Source: Eggerthellaceae bacterium (GTDB lineage Bacteria > Actinomycetota > Coriobacteriia > Coriobacteriales > Eggerthellaceae). Taken from it: DNA of 45,022 nucleotides. The notes beneath the pieces are model-generated. The model saw nothing but the letters and a program-made list of their open reading frames with translations, was not told the origin of the DNA and did not search any database. The translations under genes and the position numbers were made by a program. The stretch lies in contig JAFRLO010000007.1 of NCBI GenBank assembly GCA_017431165.1, positions 1 to 45,022 of the forward strand, in the 5' to 3' direction. Each line of letters opens with the position of its first letter. Positions within the stretch are counted from its first letter, which is position 1. This document shows, in pieces, positions 14,851-18,415 of the stretch.

Positions 14851-15450
14851 TTACAGGGCCGCTTTGATGGCAGCAAGCAAGTCTTCAAAGGTTTCGTATG
14901 CGGTGATCTCGGGATGGTCGGCCTTGATCTCATCGGTACTGCGGAACAGAAATCCCGCCTTGCTTGCGGCGATCATACCCAAATCGTTATAGCTGTCTCC
15001 GCTTGCGATGGTGTCGTAACCGATGGATTGGAGAGCACGTACCGTCGTAAGCTTCGTGTTGTCGGTGCGGAGAACAAAGCCCTCGATCATGCCATCGTCA
15101 CCGATTTCAAGCGTGTTGCAGAAAATCGTCGGCCAACCGAGCTTTCTCATGAGCGGAGTTGCGAACTGCTCGAAGGTATCGCTCAGCACGATAACCTGGG
15201 TAACCGAGCGAAGCTCATCCAGGAACTCCTTCGCGCCCGGCATCGGGTCGATCGTTTCAATGACATCCTGGATCTCTTTGATGCCTAGGCCATGCTCGCG
15301 CAGAACGCCGAGGCGCCAATTCATCAGCTTGGTGTAATCTGGTTCATCACGCGTGGTACGCGTCAATTCGGGAATGCCGCTCGCCTCAGCGAATGCGATC
15401 CAAATCTCGGGGACCAAAACGCCTTCCATATCCAAGCACACGATATTCAT
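14851..15450 (-). CDS. thrH: ThrH: phosphoserine phosphatase / phosphoserine:homoserine phosphotransferase
   Basis: A 199-residue HAD enzyme. The N-terminus MNIVCLDMEGVLVPEIWIAF is nearly that of Pseudomonas ThrH, with the DxE motif I (D7, E9) in place of the usual DxD. RTTRDEPDY, VIVLSDTFEQF (motif II) and AAGDSYND-like ASGDSYNDLGMI (motif IV) follow in order. ThrH hydrolyses phosphoserine and can pass the phosphate to homoserine, linking serine and threonine synthesis. The ATG at 15450 has AAAGGAG upstream; the longer frame starting at 15483 lacks family similarity in its first 11 residues. It is the first gene of a seven-gene minus-strand run. Confidence 0.93.
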   Translation of the reverse strand: MNIVCLDMEGVLVPEIWIAFAEASGIPELTRTTRDEPDYTKLMNWRLGVLREHGLGIKEIQDVIETIDPMPGAKEFLDELRSVTQVIVLSDTFEQFATPLMRKLGWPTIFCNTLEIGDDGMIEGFVLRTDNTKLTTVRALQSIGYDTIASGDSYNDLGMIAASKAGFLFRSTDEIKADHPEITAYETFEDLLAAIKAAL

Positions 15451-15533
15451 TTGCAGATCTCTCCTTTGCAAAAGACTTCGCACGTTTCCTTACATGCCCG
15501 GCGGCTCGCATAAAACCTTATTGGGCATCCGAT

Positions 15534-15725: not shown

Positions 15726-16556
15726 TCACAGCTTTCGCAGCACAAGATATTCGTTCAGGGCGCCTGAACGTCCGTCTGATCGAAAACGTGCAACGAGTTC
15801 TGCACGTGGCGAAATCTCCTCGATAAGAGCTTCGACATCCTCGTCGGAAAAGCTGTGAGCATAGCGATACACGCCGCTTCGCTCCTGCCAGCCGAGGAAA
15901 GCGTCACCTTGCTCGAGCATATCGAAATCGAATGCATCTGCAAGGTCGATCCGTGCGAGTTCGGTCGTCTCGGCGGCCTTTCGCGCAAGGCGCTCGTCCT
16001 CCATGAAACGCCATAGCGAGACTGCAACCTCACCACCTGGGCGTACGACATCGCACAGCCGATTAAGCAAATCTGCGCGCGCCTTGCGTCCTGGCACATG
16101 ATGAAGAAATCCAAAGCAGGCGGCGATATCGAATCCCGAAAAACCCATCGGCGCACCTGCAAGCAACCTCGAGACGACATCGCATGTGCAAAACATCATC
16201 TCACCGAGAGCGAGGCTTCCTGCCAACAGCGGTTGATCAACCTCGCCTGCAAATCGCACGGACAGCCCGAACGCCTCCGAGCCAGTACGCGCAAGGGATT
16301 CGCAGGCATCGATTGCGCAGACTGCAAAAGGATAATCCCCCATCTCGTCTGATAGGAACGACTCGAAGCGCATATTCCCGCACGCCACATCCAGAATGCG
16401 GATTATATCGCCATCTGTGCGCATGGCATCGGCGGTATCGAGGCATGTCCGCCATCCCGGCCATGCCGCGCTGCGCGTATCGGAGAACGACGACGCGCAA
16501 GCGTCGTAGAAACGCTGGTTGAGTTCGTTGAGGAAGAGAGCGGTTTCGGTGTTCAT
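15726..16556 (-). CDS. Trm9/ALKBH8-like tRNA wobble-uridine methyltransferase
   Basis: A 276-residue class I SAM methyltransferase. The N-terminus FYDACASSFSDTRSAAWPGW (17-36) lines up with the Trm9/ALKBH8 signature (VY..IA.HFS.TR..PWP). Motif I is ILDVACGN (54-61), then FLHHVPGRKAR (150-160, the family's HH), VRPGGEVAVSLW (171-182), and a C-terminal FLGWQERSGVYRYAHSF (220-236) matching the Trm9 PW...YRYYH block. Trm9 turns cm5U34 into mcm5U34 in tRNA. It diverges from elp3, which makes cm5U34, and shares its promoter. ATG 16556 is 10 nt from the -10 box with no ribosome site, so a leaderless mRNA is likely; a GTG three codons earlier is possible. Function is inferred from these blocks and context. 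Confidence 0.72.
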   Translation of the reverse strand: MNTETALFLNELNQRFYDACASSFSDTRSAAWPGWRTCLDTADAMRTDGDIIRILDVACGNMRFESFLSDEMGDYPFAVCAIDACESLARTGSEAFGLSVRFAGEVDQPLLAGSLALGEMMFCTCDVVSRLLAGAPMGFSGFDIAACFGFLHHVPGRKARADLLNRLCDVVRPGGEVAVSLWRFMEDERLARKAAETTELARIDLADAFDFDMLEQGDAFLGWQERSGVYRYAHSFSDEDVEALIEEISPRAELVARFRSDGRSGALNEYLVLRKL

Positions 16557-16576
16557 AGTGCGCACTATTATATAAT
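16555..16576. promoter_or_regulatory. shared bidirectional promoter of elp3 and the methyltransferase
   Basis: ATTATATAAT (16567-16576) is a perfect palindrome that gives TATAAT on both strands. Its ends lie 9 nt from the elp3 ATG and 10 nt from the methyltransferase ATG, so both mRNAs should start at or within about 3 nt of their start codons. A second perfect palindrome, ATAGTGCGCACTAT (16555-16568), overlaps the methyltransferase start and the -10 box and is a likely operator. No strong -35 is visible on either side. Confidence 0.7.
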
Positions 16577-16585
16577 GGCTTCACC

Positions 16586-18415
16586 ATGGAAGCTATCATC
16601 CTAGATATCGCAAACAGGCTCAAAGCAAACGAGACCATCGGCGCCAACGAACTCGCACGCATCATCCGCGCGCACAACGAAGGCATCGTCGATGTCTCTA
16701 GGCATACAGCCAAAAAGAAGCTTCTTCCCTTCTATCTGCACGCCAAAAAAAACGACCCTGCTTTCTGGTCCGGACGCGGCATAGACGATGAAACGGAAGC
16801 GAAGCTTTTGAGTCTCCTGCAGGTCAAGCCGCGAAGAACCGCAAGCGGCGTTGCGACCATCACGGTCATCACAAAGCCGCATACCTGCTCGAGCGCTTGC
16901 ATCTACTGCCCGAACGATATACGGATGCCGAAGAGCTATCTCTCGGACGAACCGGCATGCCAGCGTGCTGAACGCGCGTATTTCGACCCGTATCTTCAAG
17001 TAGTCTCGCGCATGAAAGCGCTTATTGAGATGGGGCACCCGACCGACAAGATCGAGCTCATCGTACTCGGCGGTACGTGGAGCGATTATCCGCTCGATTA
17101 CCAATATTGGTTCATGACGGGATTGTTCCGTGCGCTCAATGACATGTCCGATACAGCGCTTTCAGAGGATACGGTACATGCCCAAGTGAACATGCTTACC
17201 GAGCGATATCGCCAAGCAGGCATAAGCCGCGATCGCAGCGAGCTTGTGGAGCAGACGCGCGATGTGCAGGCGCGCATCGATGCTGGAGAGCTCACATACA
17301 ACCAAGCGTTCGCCGAGCAATACGACAGCAACAGTCCGTGGTCGAACATCGCCTCATGGCAGAAGGCTAACGCTTCCGATCTAGCGGCTGAGCATGAGCG
17401 CAACCACAATGCCGGCAAGCGTGTTGTAGGACTCGTGGTGGAGACCCGCCCCGACCTCATCACGCCGACGACGCTCACCCAACTTCGGAGCTTCGGATGC
17501 ACCAAGGTTCAAATCGGCATCCAGAGCCTTGATGAAAGCATCCTGCGTGCCAACCATCGCACAATCGACCTTGAGCAATTGACGCGCGCATTCGATCTGC
17601 TCCGGCTGTTCGGATTCAAAACCCATACCCATTTCATGGTGAACCTGTACGGATCCAATCCAGAGCATGACAAAGCAGACTACGAGCGCTTCGTGACCGA
17701 TGCGCGCTTCTTGCCCGACGAAGTCAAGCTGTACCCATGCGTCTTGGTCAAAGGCACCCCTCTTGCCTCGCTATACGAATCTGGCGCATGGCAGCCATAC
17801 GATGAAGAAACGCTCATAGACGTATTGGCACATGATGTCACCATCACGCCTCCCTACACGCGCATCTCCCGAATGATCCGCGACATCTCAGCGAAGGACA
17901 TCGTCGCAGGCAGCAAGAAGACGAATCTGCGGCAACTGGTGGATGGGAAGCTTTCAAACGAGAATGCGAACGTTTCCGAAATACGCACACGTGAGATCAA
18001 TGATGCTGAAACCGTTGCGGAGACGCTTCACTTGGATGATGTTGTTTATAAGACGCATGCGACCACCGAGCACTTTCTGCAGTGGGTGACCCCAGAAGGC
18101 CTCATCGCGGGGTTCTTGCGCCTGTCGCTTCCCCACCCAAGTGCATGGGATATCTACGATGGACTGCCCACACTCCCTGATGAGGCGATGATCAGAGAAG
18201 TTCATGTATACGGGAAAGCTGCAAAACTCCATACGCTCGGCAAGGGAGCGCAGCATCATGGTCTCGGGAAAGCGCTTATCACCCGTGCCTGCGAAATCGC
18301 GCAAAAAGCAGGGTATGGGCGCATTAACGTGATTAGTGCGATTGGCACATACGAATACTATTCACGTCTAGGATTCCACGATTCCGGCTTATACCAGCAA
18401 AGAGGATTGGATTGA
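16586..18415 (+). CDS. elp3: Elp3: tRNA uridine(34) carboxymethyl synthase (radical SAM plus GNAT)
   Basis: A 609-residue homologue of the Elongator catalytic subunit. A basic N-terminal helical segment has KKKLLPFYLHAKK, then a radical-SAM domain begins with KPHTCSSACIYCPN (cluster cysteines C101, C105, C108). LIVLGGTWSDYPLDYQYWF, ETRPDLITPTTL, VQIGIQSLDESIL and YTRISRMIRDI follow. The C-terminal acetyltransferase domain has GKGAQHHGLGKALI and GTYEYYSRLGFHDSGLY. Elp3 uses acetyl-CoA and SAM to form cm5U at the tRNA wobble position. Archaeal and bacterial forms are known to act alone, which fits the absence of other Elongator genes here. It lacks a ribosome site and starts 9 nt from its -10, so it is probably leaderless. 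Confidence 0.96.
   Translation: MEAIILDIANRLKANETIGANELARIIRAHNEGIVDVSRHTAKKKLLPFYLHAKKNDPAFWSGRGIDDETEAKLLSLLQVKPRRTASGVATITVITKPHTCSSACIYCPNDIRMPKSYLSDEPACQRAERAYFDPYLQVVSRMKALIEMGHPTDKIELIVLGGTWSDYPLDYQYWFMTGLFRALNDMSDTALSEDTVHAQVNMLTERYRQAGISRDRSELVEQTRDVQARIDAGELTYNQAFAEQYDSNSPWSNIASWQKANASDLAAEHERNHNAGKRVVGLVVETRPDLITPTTLTQLRSFGCTKVQIGIQSLDESILRANHRTIDLEQLTRAFDLLRLFGFKTHTHFMVNLYGSNPEHDKADYERFVTDARFLPDEVKLYPCVLVKGTPLASLYESGAWQPYDEETLIDVLAHDVTITPPYTRISRMIRDISAKDIVAGSKKTNLRQLVDGKLSNENANVSEIRTREINDAETVAETLHLDDVVYKTHATTEHFLQWVTPEGLIAGFLRLSLPHPSAWDIYDGLPTLPDEAMIREVHVYGKAAKLHTLGKGAQHHGLGKALITRACEIAQKAGYGRINVISAIGTYEYYSRLGFHDSGLYQQRGLD

Follow-up and report, generated by a model that had tools for sequence, protein, structure and literature searches.

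A solitary elp3 gene paired with a Trm9-like methyltransferase gene in Coriobacteriia and a likely minimal bacterial route to mcm5U34

The window, which is the whole 45,022-nucleotide stretch of Eggerthellaceae DNA that was analysed, was found to contain an elp3 gene and a Trm9-like methyltransferase gene, together with an adjoining thrH-type gene. The features of the locus were as follows.

14851..15483, minus strand: thrH-type phosphoserine phosphatase/homoserine phosphotransferase (TIGR02137/NF010109 over cut-off)
15726..16565, minus strand: Trm9-like SAM-dependent methyltransferase, 279 aa as listed, expected by inference to methylate the carboxylate of cm5U34
16557..16585, no strand: divergent intergenic region between Met4 of the methyltransferase and the elp3 ATG, about 29 bp
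16586..18415, plus strand: elp3, 609 aa radical SAM/GNAT enzyme, expected by inference to make cm5U34 in tRNA

The two genes had been described in the first-pass annotation as a complete elp3 divergent from a methyltransferase gene, and both open reading frames were found to be intact at the stated coordinates and placed head to head. The probable start of the methyltransferase was Met4 at base 16556 (MNTETALFLNEL..), in register with the starts of its relatives, and the start codons are given as about 29 bp apart because the methyltransferases of the relatives begin at this fourth residue. The short region between them is likely to be a regulatory region shared by both genes.

The Elp3 of the window was found to be full-length, with a match to TIGR01211 at E=1.8e-121 and 406 bits, against a curated cut-off of 350 bits, and its top PDB match was the bacterial Elp3 5l7j (E=1.1e-77). 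Cys101, Cys105 and Cys108 formed the CX3CX2C motif of the radical SAM cluster, which was present in all 58 of the relatives' Elp3 sequences that were read. The residues K155, K345, E538 and Y591 were aligned with K77, K193, E386 and Y441, respectively, which are named as active-site residues in the Elp3 of D. mccartyi (PMC6367351). The window Elp3 thus shares the cluster cysteines and the active-site residues with the D. mccartyi enzyme (5l7j), whereas it differs by a longer N-terminus, by an insertion and by the loss of the Cys zinc motif. In the Elp3 of the Coriobacteriia (window and L034-L113) the radical SAM domain was longer by an insertion of about 60-80 aa, and the zinc motif of D. mccartyi Elp3 was not found in the alignment of the Elp3 of this class, in which xEIRxRE replaces CxCIRCRE. 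In the Elp3 sequences from outside the class the insertion was absent and the zinc cysteines were kept in the alignment. The zinc motif was reported to be absent from eukaryotic Elp3 (PMC6367351), and it can therefore not be taken as defining for Elp3. The activity of a solitary Elp3 is established in archaea and some bacteria (PMC6367351, PMC13315578).

The methyltransferase was found to contain all of the motifs that had been quoted for it in the first-pass annotation, namely FYDACASSFSDTR..WP, LHH, VRPGGEVAVSLW and the C-terminal GW..YRYAHSF. They are not considered to be chance resemblances, since they make up the columns that do not vary among the 115 members of the family and since the two genes form a conserved pair across the class. 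With Trm9/ALKBH8 (Trm9-Trm112 of yeast and ALKBH8-TRM112 of animals, the cm5U34 carboxyl methyltransferases) the enzyme shares the N-terminal F-S-x-T-R-x-x-x-W, the HH motif, the D-x-x-x-x-W lid and the R-Y-x-H...N C-terminus, and, by inference, action on the product of Elp3. It differs from them in being bacterial, in the absence of a convincing Trm112, in the replacement of Y243 by Cys/Ala and in the lack of a fused AlkB or RRM domain. In yeast Trm9 the mutations R29A, H115A, R241A, Y243A and N271A reduced tRNA affinity and kcat (PMC5372719). When these positions were mapped via the 5cm2 alignment and the published Trm9 numbering, they corresponded to R31, H155, R234, A236 and N271 of the window methyltransferase. 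Four of the five (R31, H155, R234 and N271) were invariant in the 115 bacterial sequences, and the N-terminal TR..W and the C-terminal R-Y-x-H / N motifs of the Trm9 type were invariant or nearly so in the same set. The Tyr of Trm9 position 243 was not kept; the position was occupied by Ala236 in the window, by Cys in 100 of the 115 sequences, and by Tyr and Phe once each.

Profiles of the family were needed for its placement, as a single-sequence phmmer search of the PDB was uninformative (Trm9 at E=0.88) and only the family profile resolved the kinship. A 29-member profile searched against 177,635 PDB sequences ranked Yarrowia Trm9 (5cm2_Z) first at E=1.1e-5, and a profile of six members from outside the class again ranked 5cm2_Z first (E=1.9e-20), with an alignment that covered residues 25-222 including the C-terminal lid; the other listed matches ended earlier. 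With a 109-member profile Trm9 scored 44 bits (chain 5cm2) and 38 bits, and the E. coli controls scored 22 (UbiG), 18 (CmoA), 6 (CmoM), 4 (UbiE) and 2 bits (CmoB). The out-of-class profile gave 75-85 bits for Trm9 and 35 for the runner-up UbiE. The yeast Trm9 sequence used beside the PDB chain in these comparisons was approximate, with a numbering off by one, and the basis of the conclusions is the 5cm2 chain. The first-pass annotation had named a closest kinship with UbiE/menaquinone or small-molecule families as the result that would refute it, and the profiles placed the methyltransferase nearest to Trm9 instead. At the level of sequence, homology of the window methyltransferase to Trm9 was established.

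The AF2 model of the methyltransferase had a pLDDT of 94.4. Foldseek with this model placed Trm9 second, with many class I methyltransferases scoring alike. A second structure aligner placed METTL6, which is a tRNA methyltransferase, at the top with many others close to it; Trm9, whose crystal chain is short, was absent among the best 50. The fold comparison alone is not decisive, since neither aligner separates the class I methyltransferases.

The close relatives of the methyltransferase were found in Eggerthellaceae and other Coriobacteriia (Collinsella, Olsenella, Slackia, Atopobium, Adlercreutzia and Enorma). Among the best 80 related loci, of which two were labelled as other groups and may be mis-binned, elp3 was contained in 76 and was divergent with the methyltransferase gene in 72. 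A sample of 248 genomes was drawn from the class, all at least 90% complete except the window's own bin (66.6%). Both genes were contained in 149 of them, Elp3 alone in two, neither gene in 97 and the methyltransferase alone in none; a further nine methyltransferase matches, at E of about 1e-5 to 1e-3, were regarded as generic and excluded from this count. The co-occurrence gave a Fisher p of 8e-68, the significance of which is overstated because the genomes share ancestry. Within genera the two genes were gained or lost together: one genome (G162) contained both genes and its congener G028 neither, and another (G094) contained neither and four congeners both. In 135 of the 143 pairs with coordinates the genes lay no more than 4 kb apart. 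In two genomes (G030 and G009) both genes were present far apart on one contig, and the association is thus not only one of neighbourhood. In a phylum-wide sample both genes were contained in the identical 22 of 246 genomes. Six of these 22 carriers were outside the class, with Elp3 at about 600 bits and a more distant methyltransferase at 73-91 bits, and four of these genomes had the two genes together on one contig, directly divergent in three and separated by a single open reading frame in the fourth.

Of the class genomes with neither gene, which make up about 40% of the sample, four (G004, G008, G028 and G032) were also found to lack MnmE and MnmG.

These results bear on the possibility that the methyltransferase acts on a quinone or another small molecule and merely stands beside elp3. 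It is in keeping with this that the Pfam and NCBIfam libraries gave only generic class I methyltransferase matches for the window enzyme, with no specific family found in either, and that many small-molecule methyltransferases appeared in the rankings by structure only. The curated UbiG profile, however, gave 16.6 bits against a cut-off of 103 and UbiE was not among the listed matches, the UbiE and UbiG scores of the 109-member profile stayed below those of Trm9, and the conserved motifs were those of the Trm9 type. A merely neighbouring enzyme would also leave it unaccounted for that no genome of the 248 contained the methyltransferase without Elp3, the unlinked cases included. This reading is regarded as very improbable.

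Other routes to a modified wobble uridine were searched for in 60 relatives. No match over cut-off was found there for MnmE or MnmG and no convincing CmoB, the few CmoB matches over cut-off being partial and low-scoring. Trm112 was searched for with a profile of 40 positions, by which a short Zn protein could be missed; no match was found in the window's own genome or in two congeners, and nothing convincing in the 60 relatives, in which seven weak partial matches fell in long open reading frames. The first-pass annotation had noted no other Elongator gene and no Trm112-like gene in the window, and for Trm112 this absence was found to extend to the own genome and the two congeners; a further Elongator gene was not seen in the window on re-examination either. 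Since MnmE, MnmG and a convincing Trm112 are missing from the 60 relatives, the wobble uridine is likely to be modified by way of the pair, and, with MnmE, MnmG and a convincing CmoB absent, the cm5U made by Elp3 is the carboxylated U34 to be expected.

An enzyme of the CmoM type, converting cmo5U34 to the methyl ester mcmo5U34 without relation to the chemistry of Elp3, was also considered. CmoM of E. coli likewise methylates the carboxyl group of a modified wobble uridine (PMC7694415), so that the likeness in chemistry is real, but its substrate is cmo5U and it belongs to another subfamily, far below Trm9 in profile score (6 bits vs 38-44). In addition, CmoB was not convincingly found in the 60 relatives, and the strict dependence of the methyltransferase on Elp3 would be unexplained. 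Hardly any likelihood is left to this reading. The CmoM-like, UbiE/UbiG-like and small-molecule identities were all rejected on the profile scores and the co-occurrence.

The preferred reading, that of a minimal pathway in which Elp3 makes cm5U34 and the Trm9-like enzyme converts it to mcm5U34, probably free of Trm112 and in replacement of MnmE-MnmG, is held with good confidence. The first step would be performed by Elp3 alone, without Elp1, 2 and 4-6, by the use of acetyl-CoA and radical SAM chemistry to attach a carboxymethyl group to U34 at C5. The methyltransferase is then predicted to bind the cm5U34 anticodon nucleotide in its Arg31/His155/Arg234/Asn271 pocket and to move the methyl group of SAM to the carboxylate, probably without a Trm112 partner, and the pair would in this way take the place of the missing MnmE-MnmG route. 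Modification of the wobble base of tRNA by the pair is almost certain and mcm5U is its probable product, the chemistry being inferred and not measured; no nucleoside analysis of any carrier organism was found in the literature. The two-gene reading of the first-pass annotation was thus supported by the profiles, the near-perfect co-occurrence and the absence of MnmEG and CmoB, with the mcm5U product remaining an inference. The identity of both genes, the homology to Trm9, the conservation of the pocket residues, the linkage and the absence of the alternative routes from the searched relatives were observed, and cm5U34 as substrate, mcm5U34 as product and the independence from Trm112 are inferred from the chemistry of known families.

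Eukaryotic Trm9 requires Trm112. The need for Trm112 belongs to the eukaryotic complex and not to the catalytic chemistry, and the bacterial methyltransferase probably works without it, as inferred from its absence in the searches.

The methyltransferase may also act on the U34 derived from Elp3 with an end product other than mcm5U, such as a ribose- or C-methylated cm5U, or with the ester as an intermediate, for example on the way to an amide. The Elp3 of the class is divergent in its insertion of about 60-80 aa and its lost zinc motif, and its product could therefore differ from cm5U; one of the five Trm9 pocket residues differs as well. Against such a product stand the four remaining tRNA-binding positions of Trm9, all of which are invariant, and the position of Trm9 as the closest solved relative. 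In yeast, ncm5U is reported to accumulate in trm9 mutants (PMC3110198), so that the ester is not required there as an obligatory precursor of the amide. A product of this kind is considered unlikely, although not as remote as the identities rejected above, and mcm5U34 is retained as the preferred product.

Homologues of Elp3 and Trm9 were reported in archaea in 2008, as HVO_0574/HVO_2888 in Haloferax and as clustered genes in Sulfolobus solfataricus (PMC2584109). The archaeal Elp3-Trm9 genes follow the same two-gene logic and are sometimes clustered, a likeness that concerns the gene logic only, without direct sequence comparison; the window pair differs in being bacterial, and Trm9-Trm112 was reported for archaea (PMC7694415, citing van Tran 2018). 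Because the archaeal clustering was already known, the pair is regarded as a bacterial variant of a known pathway and not as a new pathway, and what is new is that the same logic is met in a domain from which it had not been described, apparently without Trm112. In a review, cmnm5U/mnm5U were assigned to bacteria, and cm5U and mcm5U to the archaea and the eukaryotes (PMC7694415). According to another, from 2017, no gene resembling the Trm112-dependent methyltransferases, Trm9 included, was detectable in bacteria (PMC5372719), and this is contradicted by the pair. In the open-licence literature no description of a Trm9 from bacteria, or of bacterial mcm5U, was found.

For the Coriobacteriia and some other actinobacterial lineages as a whole, the production of mcm5U34, a wobble nucleoside of the eukaryotic type, by no more than two proteins, a solitary Elp3 together with a Trm9 that is independent of Trm112, in replacement of MnmEG is favoured, with somewhat less assurance than the minimal pathway itself. 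The carriers within the class Coriobacteriia are gut and rumen bacteria, and an exception to the bacterial cmnm5U/mnm5U rule is predicted for cultured Olsenella, Collinsella, Slackia and Atopobium. If true, the pair would offer a two-protein system for the study of cm5U34 methylation without the accessory subunits of Elongator or Trm112, would show how the wobble uridine is treated in bacteria without MnmEG, and would give a name to a methyltransferase left unnamed by the curated libraries used (Pfam and NCBIfam).

The thrH-type gene was found to adjoin the pair in the window, on a second contig of the same bin (C26) and in 15 of the 80 related loci; no functional reason for this was seen and thrH is probably not part of the pathway. 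The second contig was found to contain a further thrH-elp3-methyltransferase set (L003 3729-7097), in which Elp3 was about 50% identical and ThrH 63% identical to the copies of the window. Whether this set is a paralogue or comes from a co-binned relative or contamination is unresolved, as the contig of the congener that corresponds to it extends over only 4.7 kb. The carB gene that neighbours the set was 87% identical to one of the two carB genes of a congener.
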